In this document: one piece after another, positions 1,756-41,020 of the stretch
Position numbering within the stretch: the first letter of the stretch is position 1
Layout of the letters: each line of letters begins with the position of its first letter
IMG/VR virus record: IMGVR_UViG_3300045790_002585
Span: 1-44,968 of that record
From: a virus
Length of the DNA stretch: 44,968 nt
Strand: one strand, 5' to 3'
The notes under the pieces: model-generated
Database searches by the model: none
What the model saw: the letters and a program-made list of their open reading frames with translations, nothing else
Told to the model about the DNA's origin: nothing
Program-made: the position numbers and the translations under genes

Positions 1756-2190
1756 ATGGCACGTACCCGCGATACCAAAACCCTAGACCTTTTTGACGTG
1801 CCACAACCTGCTGCGCAGTTACCAGCGAGCATGGATTACGGCTCCCTTGTCGCGCACATGGTAAGCGAAGTGCTGCGCACGGCAGATTGCGACCGGCACG
1901 AAATAGCCGCACGCATGAGCCGCTTAACTGGCAAAGACGTGAGCAAATACATGCTCGATGCCTGGTCATCAGAAAGTCGAGACACCTACAACATACCTTT
2001 TTACCTAGTGCCGGTATTAGAAACAGCATGCAGCTCGCATCAGTTTTCTAACTGGCTCGCAAGTGTGAGGGGTGGCCGACTACTAATTGGGCGAGAAGCC
2101 CTAAATGCAGAACTAGGAAGATTGGAGCACGCCAAAGCACAGGCCGCCCAGCGCATTCGCGACTTGAAAAAGCAAATGGGGGACGCCTAG
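1756..2190 (+). CDS. Early protein between ner and the transposase, function unknown
   Basis: 144 residues, starting two bases after ner. It has a central helical segment rich in charged residues (DRHEIAARMSRLTGKDVSK) and a C-terminal probable coiled coil (LNAELGRLEHAKAQAAQRIRDL). Genes of this size are common between ner and the transposase in Mu-like prophages, but I know no function. The stop codon touches the GTG start of the transposase, so the two are probably translationally coupled. Confidence 0.7.
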   Translation: MARTRDTKTLDLFDVPQPAAQLPASMDYGSLVAHMVSEVLRTADCDRHEIAARMSRLTGKDVSKYMLDAWSSESRDTYNIPFYLVPVLETACSSHQFSNWLASVRGGRLLIGREALNAELGRLEHAKAQAAQRIRDLKKQMGDA

Positions 2191-4334
2191 TGAGTGATGT
2201 GGCTGAGCGTGAACGTATGTATAGCTTTCGCTGTATAGCAGACGCACTTGGAAAAGAACTTTCAAGCGTAAAGCGTCGCGCCACCAAAGAAAGCTGGCCC
2301 TATACAACGCAGACAGTAGTGGGTGGCACGCGACACATTCATTCGCTCACAGACCTCCCCGTAGACATCCAGCAAGCGCTAATCTTAGCTCAAGCCCGCC
2401 ACGTTACCGCGCAAAAGCAGGATATTTCTGACAGCGCCTGGAATGTGTATGAGCGGGCAGGGGAGAACGCCAAACGCGAGGCAAAACGCCGCCTTGAGGC
2501 CCTAAACTTTCGCGAAGCACTCATCGCAAACGGCAGCGGCAAGTCGGCGGCTACCGACCAAGCCGCCGCTGAATACAGCGCCAACCGCGCCACCATCTAC
2601 AAGTGGGTGGAGCTTGTTAAAGGGGTAGAGCGCAGCAACTGGCTTGCCCATTTAATGCCTCAGCACGAGGGCAAGCCAAAACGCAGCGCGGAATGCACCC
2701 CCGAAGCGTGGGACTTTTTTAAGGCCGATTACTTACGCAATGAGCAGCCGTCGATTGCCAGCTGTTATGAGCGCCTAAAGCGCGCTGCTGCCGCGAATAA
2801 TTGGAAAATTCCTGCAATCCGCACGTTTAATCGGTGGTGCACCGAGCGCATACCGCTCTCGGTACGCATACTGCGCCGCGAAGGTGAGCATGCCTTGTCC
2901 TCTCGCTTCCCCTCAGTCGAGCGCACCGTGCGCAATATGCACGCGCTGGAATGGATAAATGGTGACGGCTACCAGCACAACGTCTTTGTAAAATGGCCAG
3001 ACGGCACCATAGACCGCCCCAAAACATGGTTTTGGCAAGATGTTCACGCACGTAAAATACTCAGCTACCGCGTAGACCTTACCGAGAACACCGACTCAAT
3101 ACGCCTGAGCTTTGGCGACTTGGTAGAACAATACGGCATCCCGTACCACGCCACCATCGACAACACCCGCGCTGCCGCCAACAAATGGATGACTGGCGGG
3201 GTGCCCAATCGCTATCGCTTTAAAGTCAAAGAAGACGACCCACTGGGCATCTTCCCCATGCTGGGCGTACAAGTGCACTGGACCAGCGTAGACAAAGCCG
3301 GTACTCAAGCCAAAGGCCGTGGCCAAGCCAAACCCATTGAACGCGCCTTTGGTGTGGGTGGTCTGGGCGACTACGTAGACCAGCACCCCGATTTTGCTGG
3401 TGCCTATACCGGCAAAAACGTAAACGCCAAACCAGAGAACTACGCCTCTAAAGCTGTGCCGCTGGCAGACTTTGTGCGAGTACTAAACGAAGAAATTATC
3501 CACTGGAACGCCAGAGAAGGGCGCCGCACCGAAATGGCTGGCGGCACTCTTAGTTTTGACCAGGTCTTTAACAACTCATATAACGCCGCCCCTATACGCA
3601 AAGCCACCGAAGCTCAGCGCCGCATGTGGCTACTCACCGCCGAAGCTATTCGCGTCGACAAAACTGGCTGCTTTACCTTGGCTGCGGGTGCCAAAACTGG
3701 ACAAGGCCGTGACGGCCGCAACCGCTACTTTGCCCCAGAGCTTTTGGAATACGGTGATCGAGGCATAAAAATTGTGGTGCGTTTTGACCCCGACGAGCTG
3801 CATCACAACGTGTATGCCTACACCCTCGATGGCCGCTTTATTACCACCGCCAATTGCCTAGAAGCCAAAGGCTTCGGTGACACCGACGGCAGCCGCATAT
3901 ACAGCCGCGAACGTAAGAAATTCATCAAAGCCACCAAGGCCGCCGCTACCGCCGAAATACGGATGGACCTCGCGGGCGTCTCGCAACGTCTACCGCGCCC
4001 TGAACTGCCAGGCCCAATAGAAAGCAAAGTAGTGCGACCTGTTCGCGCCGCCATTGAACTGCCCGACACCAAATCACCAGACGAATACTGGACAAAACAA
4101 GCCGAGGCTTCAATGGCCGAAGTAGAGGCCCTATTTGAACCCCATGCGCCCGAGCCAGAAAGCACCGCATACCAGCGTTGGTTGAGAGTGGGTGATGCTT
4201 TGGAGCAAGGCGAAACCCTTTCTCAGATCGACGCCAAATGGTGGGCTAAGAACAAAGAAAACCCCGAATTTACAAACCGAAAATTTATGGAGGATTGGCA
4301 AGAAAGGCTAGAACGGACAGTCAGCAGCAACTGA
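2190..4334 (+). CDS. A: MuA-like DDE transposase
   Basis: 714 residues, GTG start. It pairs prophage ends and carries out strand transfer for integration and replicative transposition. The N-terminal winged helix (about 8-65) is the end-binding region. The catalytic core contains WINGDGY (Asp259), TIDNTR (Asp324) and PIERAFG (Glu384), matching MuA residues Asp269, Asp336 and Glu392. PKTWFWQDV, NKWMTGG and RYRFKVKEDDP are almost identical to MuA. A beta-barrel region follows (VVRFDPDELHHNVYAYTLDG). The C-terminal tail (about 650-714) is where MuA contacts B and ClpX. Length is a little over MuA (663). Confidence 0.98.
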   Translation: MSDVAERERMYSFRCIADALGKELSSVKRRATKESWPYTTQTVVGGTRHIHSLTDLPVDIQQALILAQARHVTAQKQDISDSAWNVYERAGENAKREAKRRLEALNFREALIANGSGKSAATDQAAAEYSANRATIYKWVELVKGVERSNWLAHLMPQHEGKPKRSAECTPEAWDFFKADYLRNEQPSIASCYERLKRAAAANNWKIPAIRTFNRWCTERIPLSVRILRREGEHALSSRFPSVERTVRNMHALEWINGDGYQHNVFVKWPDGTIDRPKTWFWQDVHARKILSYRVDLTENTDSIRLSFGDLVEQYGIPYHATIDNTRAAANKWMTGGVPNRYRFKVKEDDPLGIFPMLGVQVHWTSVDKAGTQAKGRGQAKPIERAFGVGGLGDYVDQHPDFAGAYTGKNVNAKPENYASKAVPLADFVRVLNEEIIHWNAREGRRTEMAGGTLSFDQVFNNSYNAAPIRKATEAQRRMWLLTAEAIRVDKTGCFTLAAGAKTGQGRDGRNRYFAPELLEYGDRGIKIVVRFDPDELHHNVYAYTLDGRFITTANCLEAKGFGDTDGSRIYSRERKKFIKATKAAATAEIRMDLAGVSQRLPRPELPGPIESKVVRPVRAAIELPDTKSPDEYWTKQAEASMAEVEALFEPHAPEPESTAYQRWLRVGDALEQGETLSQIDAKWWAKNKENPEFTNRKFMEDWQERLERTVSSN

Positions 4335-4386: not shown

Positions 4387-5127
4387 ATGACAATCAGCGA
4401 TATCGACAACATCAGCGGCATGGCACCGCTCACCAATATGGCCCTGACCAAGGCTGCAGTAGAGCGAGCGCAAAACCGCGCCGAGTCACTGCCGGGCATG
4501 GTCGTGATGTTTGGCCCCAGCGGATTTGGCAAAAGCTACAGCGCCACGTTTGTTGCCAATACCTTGCGCGCCCACTACGTAGAGTGCCGCAGCTCTTGGA
4601 CAAAAAAGGCCTTGCTCGAAGCCATACTGCTCGACATGGGCATAACCGCTGCCGCCACCATCTACAAAATGACCGACCAAATATCGGAAGAACTCGCGCA
4701 AAGCCAGCGACCGCTGATCATCGACGAAGTCGATCATATCGTTGATAAAAAAGCGGTTGAGATAATTCGCGACATTTACGAAGGCAGCAAAGCCCCCATG
4801 CTGTTAATCGGCGAAGAAAAGCTCCCAGCTAAGCTCAAGCGCTGGGAACGCTTTGACGGCCGCATATTAGATTGGGTGCCAGCCCAGCCCGCCACCGACA
4901 AAGACACCGCCAGCCTTTGCCGTGTGTATGCGCGGGGCATCGACATAAAACCAGACATACAAAAAGAAATCACCCAGCTGGCGCGCGGCAGCGTGCGCCG
5001 TATCTGCGTCAATCTAGATAAAGTTCGCAGCATTGCAGAGCAAGAAGGCTGGGACAGCGTAGACAAAAAACGCTGGGCCGGTCGCGGCTTCTACACTGGC
5101 CAAGCGCCAGCAAGGAAGCTGATATGA
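4387..5127 (+). CDS. B: MuB-like AAA+ ATPase, target DNA activator
   Basis: 246 residues, ATG with AAGGAA upstream. Walker A is GPSGFGKS (43-50) and Walker B is LIIDEVDH (110-117). In Mu, B forms ATP-dependent filaments on target DNA, stimulates the transposase and protects the element from inserting into itself. This copy is shorter than Mu B (312) and lacks its N-terminal helix-turn-helix extension, as in B3/D3112-type phages. It begins 52 bp after the transposase; its last four bases overlap the next gene. Confidence 0.93.
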   Translation: MTISDIDNISGMAPLTNMALTKAAVERAQNRAESLPGMVVMFGPSGFGKSYSATFVANTLRAHYVECRSSWTKKALLEAILLDMGITAAATIYKMTDQISEELAQSQRPLIIDEVDHIVDKKAVEIIRDIYEGSKAPMLLIGEEKLPAKLKRWERFDGRILDWVPAQPATDKDTASLCRVYARGIDIKPDIQKEITQLARGSVRRICVNLDKVRSIAEQEGWDSVDKKRWAGRGFYTGQAPARKLI

Positions 5128-38694: not shown

Positions 38695-38924
38695 GTACCC
38701 GTAATCCCTGGCTAAAGTTCAGCAAGCTCTTAAAAGGCGAGGGACGCACCGTCGTCACCGTACAAAGTAATAACGGCGACGGCACCAGTACGGTCACCAC
38801 CCGCGACGGTACAAGTATCAAGGTGAAGGGCGAGGGCGTAGCCGCGACCAAAAAGGCAATAATAGAAGGCGGCGAGCTGCGGTATGAAGTGCCGAATCTT
38901 AGTAGCTCTGTTGTTGAGGTGTAA
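38691..38924 (+). CDS. Small tail protein after the hub
   Basis: 77 residues. Basic N-terminus (STRNPWLKFSKLLKGEGRTV) then short beta strands (TVVTVQSNNGDGTSTVTTRD). Its frame overlaps the hub stop (ATGA). Similar small proteins end the tail cluster of B3-like phages. Function unknown. Confidence 0.65.
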   Translation: MSTRNPWLKFSKLLKGEGRTVVTVQSNNGDGTSTVTTRDGTSIKVKGEGVAATKKAIIEGGELRYEVPNLSSSVVEV

Positions 38925-38942
38925 ATAGGAAAGAGACAGCGA

Positions 38943-39033
38943 GTGGCATGGTGCGGGAACACCACGCCACCCGCCCACAGTAGTAAGACTGTGAGCCAAG
39001 GCTGCCCCGCTCGACGTCGAGCAAAGGGAGCCT
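38943..39033 (+). ncRNA. Structured leader before com (several hairpins)
   Basis: Three hairpins follow one another: GTGGCATGGTG/CACCACGCCAC (38943-38970, one mismatch), CACAGT/ACTGTG (38976-38993), and GCTCGAC/GTCGAGC (39009-39022), which is enclosed by AGGCT/AGCCT. No T-run follows. No late-promoter element like those at 12625 and 22044 is seen here. Confidence 0.45.
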
Positions 39034-39057
39034 ACCAGATTTTTATTGGAGGTTCAC

Positions 39058-39267
39058 ATGCAGGAAATACGATGTAGCCGGTGTAATCGGTTACTTGCGA
39101 AAGCAATTTATACAGTTATCGAGGCCAAGTGCCCTCGGTGCAAGTTCTTTAACAATATGAGTGCCACGAGCACCGCGAGCGCCCAGAGCGCCACGGAAGG
39201 TGCTCGTCATGTACACAATACACAACCGCGATTGTCTAGCGGTGTTGGCCGAGATGGAATCAAATAG
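39058..39267 (+). CDS. com: Com-like zinc-finger translational regulator
   Basis: 69 residues, ATG with GGAGG upstream. The N-terminal half is a Com finger: IRCSRCNRLL (Cys6, Cys9) and AKCPRCKFFN (Cys25, Cys28). In Mu, Com binds the com-mom mRNA and opens the hairpin that hides the mom start. The C-terminal half here is low complexity (MSATSTASAQSATEGAR) and is encoded by the DNA that forms the downstream hairpin, so its sequence may serve RNA structure more than protein. It overlaps the methyltransferase gene by 59 bases in another frame. Confidence 0.88.
   Translation: MQEIRCSRCNRLLAKAIYTVIEAKCPRCKFFNNMSATSTASAQSATEGARHVHNTQPRLSSGVGRDGIK
39166..39207 (+). promoter_or_regulatory. Hairpin at the methyltransferase start (Com target)
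   Basis: ACGAGCACC (39166-39174) is perfectly complementary to GGTGCTCGT (39199-39207). The loop is 24 nt. The 3' arm includes the end of the GGAAGG ribosome site (39195-39200) and stops one base before the ATG. Com would have to open it, as in Mu com-mom. Confidence 0.75.
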
Positions 39268-40168
39268 CGTCGATCTGGTTGCGACCGATCCACCGTATTA
39301 TCGCGTTAAAGCAGATGCTTGGGACAATCAGTGGGTAAGTCAGGGCGAGTTTTTAGCCTGGCTTGAATCGGTAGTAGTGGAATGCGTTCGCGTTCTTAAG
39401 CCAACCGGCAGTCTTTACTTGTTCATGGGACCAAAAATGGCCGCACCGGTGGAACGGATGATTGCGAAACACATGGTCGTTGAAAATCACATAGTCTGGA
39501 TTAAACCAAGTGGTATGCATAAACGGCAGCGCCGAGCCAGCTTGCGGCGCTATTTCCCTGCCACTGAACGGATTATATTTGCTACGCAGCGTAACTACTC
39601 TGAAGCCAAGGCACAGCATAAGGCGGTATCTATCGCTTGCGCGCCAATCATTGATTACCTCCAGAAAGCATTAAGTGACGTTGGGCTGACCCAGTCTGAT
39701 GTCGATCGCGCTTTGGGTATGCAAATGGCGGGGCATTGGTTTGGTCGGTCGCAATGGCGACTACCGACGGAGGAGCAGTATGCTCAGCTTCAGCAGCTTT
39801 TTAACGGCACGTTAAAACGGTCTTACAAACGGCTTAAAGCGGAATGTAACCGCTTAATGAACGACACTGAAAAGCCAGCAAAGCGGCATTTTGATGTGGA
39901 TGGCCGCGACTGGTACACCGACGCGTGGGTGTGCCAGCCCGTGCAGTTTTACCCCGGCAAACACCCCTGCGAAAAGCCAATGGCCATGATGGAGCACATC
40001 ATCACCGCCAGCAGCCGCCCCGGCGATGTGGTGTTCGACCCGTTTATGGGAGGAGGGACGACGGGGGTAGCTGCGATCGGTGCCGGGCGCCGGTTTATTG
40101 GGTGTGAGTTGGATGAGGGGTACTACCAAAGTGCGTCGAAACGGATTTGTACATTAGGGCGTGATTAA
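39209..40168 (+). CDS. DNA amino-methyltransferase replacing Mom
   Basis: 319 residues from ATG 39209, with GGAAGG eight bases upstream; a longer in-frame start at 39161 gives an improbable PRAPRAPRAPR repeat. Motif IV is DPPY (27-30) and motif I is DPFMGGGTTG (277-286) followed by FIGCELDE, the order of beta-class N6-adenine or N4-cytosine methyltransferases. A central insert (SDVGLTQSDVDRALG ... WFGRSQWRLPTEEQY) looks like a helix-turn-helix and may set target choice. It probably modifies phage DNA against host restriction. No restriction partner is present. Confidence 0.9.
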   Translation: MYTIHNRDCLAVLAEMESNSVDLVATDPPYYRVKADAWDNQWVSQGEFLAWLESVVVECVRVLKPTGSLYLFMGPKMAAPVERMIAKHMVVENHIVWIKPSGMHKRQRRASLRRYFPATERIIFATQRNYSEAKAQHKAVSIACAPIIDYLQKALSDVGLTQSDVDRALGMQMAGHWFGRSQWRLPTEEQYAQLQQLFNGTLKRSYKRLKAECNRLMNDTEKPAKRHFDVDGRDWYTDAWVCQPVQFYPGKHPCEKPMAMMEHIITASSRPGDVVFDPFMGGGTTGVAAIGAGRRFIGCELDEGYYQSASKRICTLGRD

Positions 40169-40354
40169 CTTGAATGGGGTAGTCTTAAAGGATAATACAT
40201 TGGCCAAAAACGCTGGGTATTCACTATGTGATGTCGTTTTAAGTGAGCGTGTTATCCATAAATTGCCCGAATTGCGACATTAGCGGCCAGGCGCTGTTTT
40301 AATATGGTCAATGCATTTGAATAGTAGCGTCTACCTGACGAGTTACTTAACTCA

Positions 40355-40426: not shown

Positions 40427-41020
40427 ATGCAAGAACCAAGTTACGGAATGATCCCTGTAAGTGATTTTGCGACTGAAAAAGGTATTGCCGTTGAAAAAGC
40501 AATAGAAATGATAAGGGATGGATTCTATTCTGGTCGGAAAATTGGTGACTCTTGGTATGTGGAAAAATCCGAGTTGTCTCAAGAAGCATCTACGATACAA
40601 AAGCCAAGTGAATCTAAAAGTTCAAGTAAAAAAATGCTTTTCGTTGTTGGTCTTGTAGTATTCGCGGCAATCTATATTGCTTTTTTGGCCCCTAAGTATC
40701 AAAAAGATAAAGTTGTTGGTCTTCTCACTGCCGCCACGGATGAGAGGAAGTGCTTCAGTTTCCATAAAAATAGTCTGAAAGATCCAGAATCTGCCTATCT
40801 TGTTGATAGCTACACTTGGACTAAAGAAAATGAGATGAAATACGCTTCTGGTTCTTCTAACCCCGTATTTAAAGAATATGATGCCGTTCTTAGGGTTAAG
40901 CTGCAGGCCAAAAATGGATTTGGTGCATATGGGGGCCTAATAGTCGAGTGCCCTCTGAAAAATGGTAAGTTCGATAGGCATTATGCTTCTATGTGGCAGA
41001 TCGAAAATATGTACAAGTAA
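40427..41020 (+). CDS. Right-end accessory membrane protein
   Basis: 197 residues. The N-terminal 50 residues (MIPVSDFATEKGIAVEKAIE, then GRKIGDSWYVEKSEL) resemble a MerR/excisionase-like DNA-binding helix-turn-helix. A Ser/Lys linker leads to one membrane helix (about 70-88, LFVVGLVVFAAIYIAFLA). The C-terminal 105 residues would be periplasmic, with Cys in RKCFSF and VECPLK. The final gene of the prophage, A/T-rich, with its own promoter, where transposable phages often carry lysogenic-conversion genes. Superinfection exclusion is plausible; not demonstrated. Confidence 0.7.
   Translation: MQEPSYGMIPVSDFATEKGIAVEKAIEMIRDGFYSGRKIGDSWYVEKSELSQEASTIQKPSESKSSSKKMLFVVGLVVFAAIYIAFLAPKYQKDKVVGLLTAATDERKCFSFHKNSLKDPESAYLVDSYTWTKENEMKYASGSSNPVFKEYDAVLRVKLQAKNGFGAYGGLIVECPLKNGKFDRHYASMWQIENMYK

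Follow-up and report, generated by a model that had tools for sequence, protein, structure and literature searches.

Com of bacteriophage Mu is a translational activator (PMC6483171), and RNAs selected in vitro with this protein carry 5′-CC(N)2-3GAG-3′ in a hairpin loop, in which the GA dinucleotides are protected (Nowacka et al. 2019, PMC6483171). In the Mu com-mom arrangement, a CCCC zinc-finger Com overlaps the modification gene at the right end of the genome, the CC(N)2-3GAG hairpin loop has GA before and C after it (GAAUGCCUGCGAGCAUCC), and RNA structure is present at the ribosome site. The locus described here has all of these features, but encodes a beta-class DNA methyltransferase where Mu encodes Mom, and carries two mini-hairpins where Mu has one, the second Mu motif being without a full hairpin. 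Furthermore, the inhibitory stem of our locus shares bases with the first mini-hairpin (operator A) and encloses the second (operator B), whereas Mu has a separate stem beside the Com hairpin that includes the GUG start (PMC6483171).

The pairing of Com with a methylase is itself already known. Burkholderia phage KS5 gp21/gp20, a Com overlapping an N4/N6 methylase, was so annotated in 2010 (PMC3091744), in a paper whose passages found by us name the genes and describe no operator or mechanism; Com-methylase pairs are likewise annotated in AP3 and Chuche. KS5, AP3 and Mana resemble our locus in combining Com with a methylase, with two Com operators in AP3 and Mana (+22 and +44, counted after the CPRC codons of the zinc finger), but they are P2-like phages and their methylase belongs to another subgroup. 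The com-dam pairs of Pseudomonas UMP151, Phipami28 and Curvibacter phage TJ1 also place Com and one or more operators before a DNA methyltransferase, which unlike ours is a D12 (Dam, alpha-class) enzyme; in UMP151, as here, a 9-bp stem sequesters the Shine-Dalgarno sequence (SD; GCCTCCTGA/TCAGGAGGC) and has bases in common with operator A. The com genes of UMP151 (locus L002, 2501-2689) and PAN70 (L005, 2001-2216) are unannotated in the public records. We found no report of a shared Com operator ahead of methyltransferases in the literature searched, coverage of which was partial.

Results

The com and methyltransferase genes

The window, the whole 44,968-nt stretch analyzed, is the virus record of a Mu-like phage that encodes a Mu transposase (2190-4334) and a MuB-like ATPase (4387-5127); the com/methyltransferase pair was placed at the right-hand end of the structural genes, and all features of the pair described below lie on the plus strand. 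The com gene (39058-39267) starts at an ATG 5 nt behind the SD GGAGG (39048-39052) and encodes a 69-aa zinc-finger protein, which exceeded the Pfam cut-off for PF10122 (Zn_ribbon_Com; 39.2 bits against 22.9) and also matched phrog_6417 (“translational regulator”, E = 5e-14) and phrog_13819. All cysteines of the CxxC-x15-CxxC pattern are present (codons within 39073-39141), and C6, C9, C25 and C28 are invariant in the Com alignment. RNA binding and translational activation are predicted functions of this Com.

The second gene (39209-40168; ATG at 39209, stop at 40168) encodes 319 aa and shares 59 nt with the com frame; its SD is GGAAGG (39195-39200). The gene behind com in the window was found to be PF01555 (N6_N4_Mtase, E = 1.3e-45) and not Mom (PF25680). 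DPPY comes first (residues 27-30) and FMGGG (FxGxG) lies in the last 60 residues, the motif order of a beta-class enzyme of the N6/N4 amino type; the nearest solved structures include MboIIA, DpnA and RsrI, and the product is probably m6A. Pfam matches and motif order therefore agree with the sequence-only reading, in which a Com-type finger precedes a beta-class DNA methyltransferase. After the methyltransferase, a 197-aa ORF (40427-41020) has a hydrophobic stretch and no Pfam match, and is possibly a right-end accessory gene.

Two Com operators in the 3′ end of com

We found the Mu Com motif CC(N)2-3GAG twice in the 3′ end of com, as GAGUGCCACGAGCACC (39159-39174) and GAGCGCCCAGAGCGCC (39177-39192). 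Each copy forms a 4-bp mini-hairpin with a 5-nt loop, GA before and C after, as in the Mu element. Operator A (39159-39175; GA-GUG-C[CACGA]G-CAC-C) has its stem at 39161-39164/39170-39173 and its CCACGAG at 39164, the canonical +22 position; operator B (39177-39193; GA-GCG-C[CCAGA]G-CGC-C) has its stem at 39179-39182/39188-39191 and lies at +40, the usual place being +44. A covariance model from which the window's own cluster had been withheld was run over the 45 kb and ranked B first (22.7 bits) and A second (21.8 bits), versus only 12.1 bits for the third-best match. A third CCNNGAG match (39173-39179, +31) was set aside as incidental, since it runs into the conserved GA of operator B and lacks a stem. 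Both operators are retained in four close relatives (L010, L090, L091 and L092), whose methyltransferases are 78-80% identical to that of the window, with changes confined to loop N positions and the 2-nt spacer. No Rfam family was matched near its gathering score in 38900-40300. We regard it as near certain that the operators are real. The tail of Com is low in complexity (SATSTASAQSATEG) and is the product of this RNA element, as had been proposed from the sequence.

The operator across com loci

We collected 338 com loci by protein similarity and not by operator. The 330 with sufficient flanking sequence grouped into 71 clusters at about 70% nucleotide identity. The motif was present within 150 nt 3′ of the zinc finger in 71 of 71 clusters, compared with 27 ± 4 for dinucleotide shuffles (maximum of 200 runs, 39); since the loci are all homologous and some clusters are related, these are not 71 independent events, and shuffling leaves this homology in, whereas the covariation and synonymous-codon tests remove it in part. 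On the opposite strand the motif occurred in 10 clusters. Among 1024 patterns of the form XX(N)2-3YYY, CC(N)2-3GAG ranked first both by clusters and by total count. Within com codons we counted 110 motif sites, against 59 ± 5 under within-gene permutation of synonymous codons; the encoded peptide therefore does not explain the motif.

Positions of the operator after the CPRC codons were rigid, at +22 (mostly CCNNGAG), at +44 (mostly CCNNNGAG) or at both, and these two sites differ in codon phase and in encoded residues. The downstream start lay mostly at +70 to +76, the start codons of many loci being picked by rule. From 83 distinct operators, with the window cluster excluded, we derived the consensus GA-NNN-C[CN(2-3)GA]G-N′N′N′-C, in which 97% of stem cells were paired and 89 cells were changed on both sides. 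Stem covariation was 0.645, versus 0.200 ± 0.020 for shuffles and at most 0.13 for slid partners. In 79 loci fetched by methyltransferase similarity alone (450 kb), no covariance-model match exceeded 16.4 bits. That the other 70 cluster representatives have hits in the operator zone follows largely from how the model was built, and its E-values are rough. A class-wide genome search was too sparse to serve as evidence (3 of 369 genomes above the cut-off).

A stem at the ribosome site excludes operator A

The inhibitory stem is formed by a 5′ arm (39166-39174) and a 3′ arm (39199-39207) complementary at 9 of 9 positions, with the single base 39208 between the stem and the methyltransferase ATG. 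Its 3′ arm masks 39199-39200 of GGAAGG, so that the last bases of the SD are covered along with most of the spacer up to the ATG. The perfect 9-bp hairpin reported by the sequence-only reading, partly over the ribosome site and ending one base short of the ATG, is therefore real; its location in the gene overlap did not hold, as it sits in the 3′ part of com, just ahead of the com/methyltransferase overlap. Of the four close relatives, L010 and L091 retain most of the stem, and L090 and L092 each show a single mismatch. Its folding is not exceptional (z −1.5), and 15% of constrained shuffles hid the SD at least as well. The stem alone is unremarkable and is weaker evidence than the operators; we dropped it as the main evidence. 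It is the two mini-hairpins with the Com motif, overlapping its 5′ arm, that stand out from chance.

Its relation to the operators is a matter of coordinates. The 5′ arm spans most of the operator A loop and its whole 3′ arm, so that the stem and A are mutually exclusive; in the fold predicted for the free RNA, operator B occupies the tip of the inhibitory hairpin. When both operators were formed in silico, the spacer (39201-39208) went from 13% to 55% unpaired. Neither A nor B alone was sufficient; with A alone, the ribosome strand paired instead with the next GAGCGCC repeat. The SD core and ATG were roughly half unpaired even in the free state, with no clear gain once A and B had formed. The computed cost of forming both operators was about 9 kcal/mol, an amount that would have to come from binding energy.

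We also compared operators with ribosome sites across loci. In 57 loci, pairing between the operator and its own ribosome binding site (RBS) reached −11.57 kcal/mol versus −9.99 ± 0.30 kcal/mol for permuted pairs (0 of 5000), and complementarity also exceeded an additive model that allows for composition (p 4e-4); the control, the zinc-finger coding stretch against the RBS, was weak (74 of 5000, p 0.06). The window stands at the 5% rank among loci for RBS-operator complementarity. Accessibility differed from shuffles across loci for the whole RBS (p 0.006). For the SD core no difference was seen across loci (p 0.58), and SD-core accessibility with and without operators was discarded as evidence, shuffles being equal. 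A like logic was found in other sequences, namely GCCTCCTGA/TCAGGAGGC in UMP151 (L002), GAGGGCC/GGCCCTC in L221 and L225, and GAGCTCC/GGAGCTC in L494. At the window RBS, the case for an inhibitory structure thus consists of a 9-bp stem exclusive with A and a complementarity that is significant across loci, the lone stem not being so.

A structured leader ahead of com

The com leader (38925-39057) is strongly structured RNA (fold z −4.46, 0 of 200 shuffles), forming several hairpins and pairing the com ribosome site (GTGAGCC with GGTTCAC). It is conserved in the four relatives, with one covarying pair. A 14-mer scan gave 77 viral contigs as candidate carriers; in the loci fetched earlier the leader core occurred in the window's close relatives only. 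The leader (38925-39057) had no Rfam match, and we dropped its assignment to a known RNA. It is possibly a second layer of control, acting on com itself.

Enzymes behind Com

Our own grouping of the 71 clusters by downstream gene gave 27 Dam-type, 20 N6/N4-type, 10 Mom, 5 C5-type and 9 other, and Pfam on the 69 representatives with a readable downstream frame gave 29 D12 (Dam), 20 N6_N4, 10 Mom and 5 C5. The operator motif was present with every downstream enzyme class. Between L244 (Dam) and L240 (Mom), whose viral contigs carry the same IMG genome number (2523533624) in their names, 95% identity extends from the zinc finger as far as the start codon, and the sequence beyond is unrelated (46%); the pairs L333/L332 (92%) and L310/L314 (90%) set Mom against N6/N4 in the same manner. 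These pairs indicate that exchange of the enzyme behind a kept switch does occur, with the breakpoint at the start codon, and this is a widespread pattern.

The sequence-only reading had held that the switch was retained here while Mom was replaced. In kind, this stands, as the L244/L240 pair illustrates; its Mom-first direction is unsupported, with 52 methyltransferase versus 10 Mom clusters. On a weakly resolved Com tree (36 columns) the partner label is scattered, with 35 changes versus 37.6 when shuffled, and several changes per class are required even if only well-supported branches are counted. The tree is directionless, and the replacement of Mom at this locus was set aside as far as its direction goes.

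Behind com in L306, L232, L320 and L217 are genes for neither a methyltransferase nor Mom: a ~55-aa ORF starts from about +70 (phrog_28816 in L320, the one tested) and is followed by another protein, which in L306 and L232 has ~380 aa, with ABC ATPase and GNAT (phrog_11143). In Gordonia phages, relatives adjoin ParB-like genes. The ABC/GNAT operon is a candidate for a new DNA modification operon. In L200 and L256, Com is followed by ~490-aa proteins, with a methylase domain in L200 and a putatively ParB-like N-terminus.

Discussion

Our main reading is that a Com-operated translational switch controls the methyltransferase of this phage, to which we assign a probability of roughly 0.8. The Mu-type switch proposed by the sequence-only reading appears well supported by sequence evidence: the in-vitro Com motif occurs twice, the hairpins covary and stand at set distances, and the operators pair with the ribosome site. 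That reading had seen the inhibitory stem and overlooked the two Com operators, which are the main evidence. We consider the switch likely and the precise inhibitory fold of this phage plausible.

In the proposed mechanism, one mRNA would be translated for both com and the methyltransferase. In Com-free RNA, the stem 39166-39174/39199-39207 would tie up the last part of the SD together with the spacer preceding the ATG, and little enzyme would be made. Com, produced first, would bind the CCNNGAG loops of hairpins A (39159-39175) and B (39177-39193); Com-stabilized A would exclude the inhibitory stem through the bases they have in common, B would remove the alternative partner, and the ribosome site would open. 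The methyltransferase would then appear only after a build-up of Com, presumably at a late lytic stage. Early methylation may be harmful, as had been suggested from the sequence.

The effect of bound Com could in principle be the reverse. Both operators are located within com, 16-50 nt ahead of the methyltransferase start, where a bound protein could hinder initiation or block the ribosomes translating com, making Com a repressor of the nearby ribosome site or an autoregulator of its own message, and the SD core in the free state is not clearly more hidden than chance would have it. We nevertheless consider repression unlikely: Mu Com, with the same motif, is a translational activator (PMC6483171), and operator-RBS complementarity exceeds that of permuted pairs, a pairing that is required if an activator is to work on an inhibitory stem, but not for repression. 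Com would accordingly be expected to activate.

Less probable still is that the 59-nt overlap provides simple translational coupling and the hairpins arise as by-products of coding for a Ser/Ala-rich tail. The frames do overlap and the single 9-bp stem is unremarkable, but the excess over synonymous permutation (110 versus 59 ± 5), the occurrence in two codon phases and the covarying stems all speak against such a by-product; coupling may act in addition to the switch. Short GC-rich hairpin sequences can also serve as protein sites on DNA, and the repeats might on that ground be sites for a transcription factor or targets of the methyltransferase. This we judge very improbable, given that the motif favors the coding strand (71 clusters, versus 10 for the opposite strand), that pairing is maintained despite sequence variation, as expected for a hairpin of single-stranded RNA, and that this very motif was selected with RNA (PMC6483171).

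Beyond this phage, we think it probable, with somewhat less confidence than for the switch itself, that Com and a bipartite RNA operator form a portable cassette that times DNA modification of any chemistry in many phage lineages. In such a cassette the start codon would be the point of enzyme exchange, and operator and ribosome site would evolve together as partners that exclude one another. The cassette would serve alpha- and beta-class amino-methyltransferases, C5-methyltransferases, Mom and possibly a new ABC-ATPase/GNAT operon.

Com has been known as an oddity of phage Mu and Mom; these data suggest a general means by which phages control DNA modification. A motif from in-vitro work on a single phage now extends to an RNA family whose stems covary and which precedes at least four classes of enzyme; its recognizable operator could be used to find controlled genes, including modification systems so far unrecognized. 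The question of why a phage must delay its own methyltransferase thereby becomes testable in many systems.
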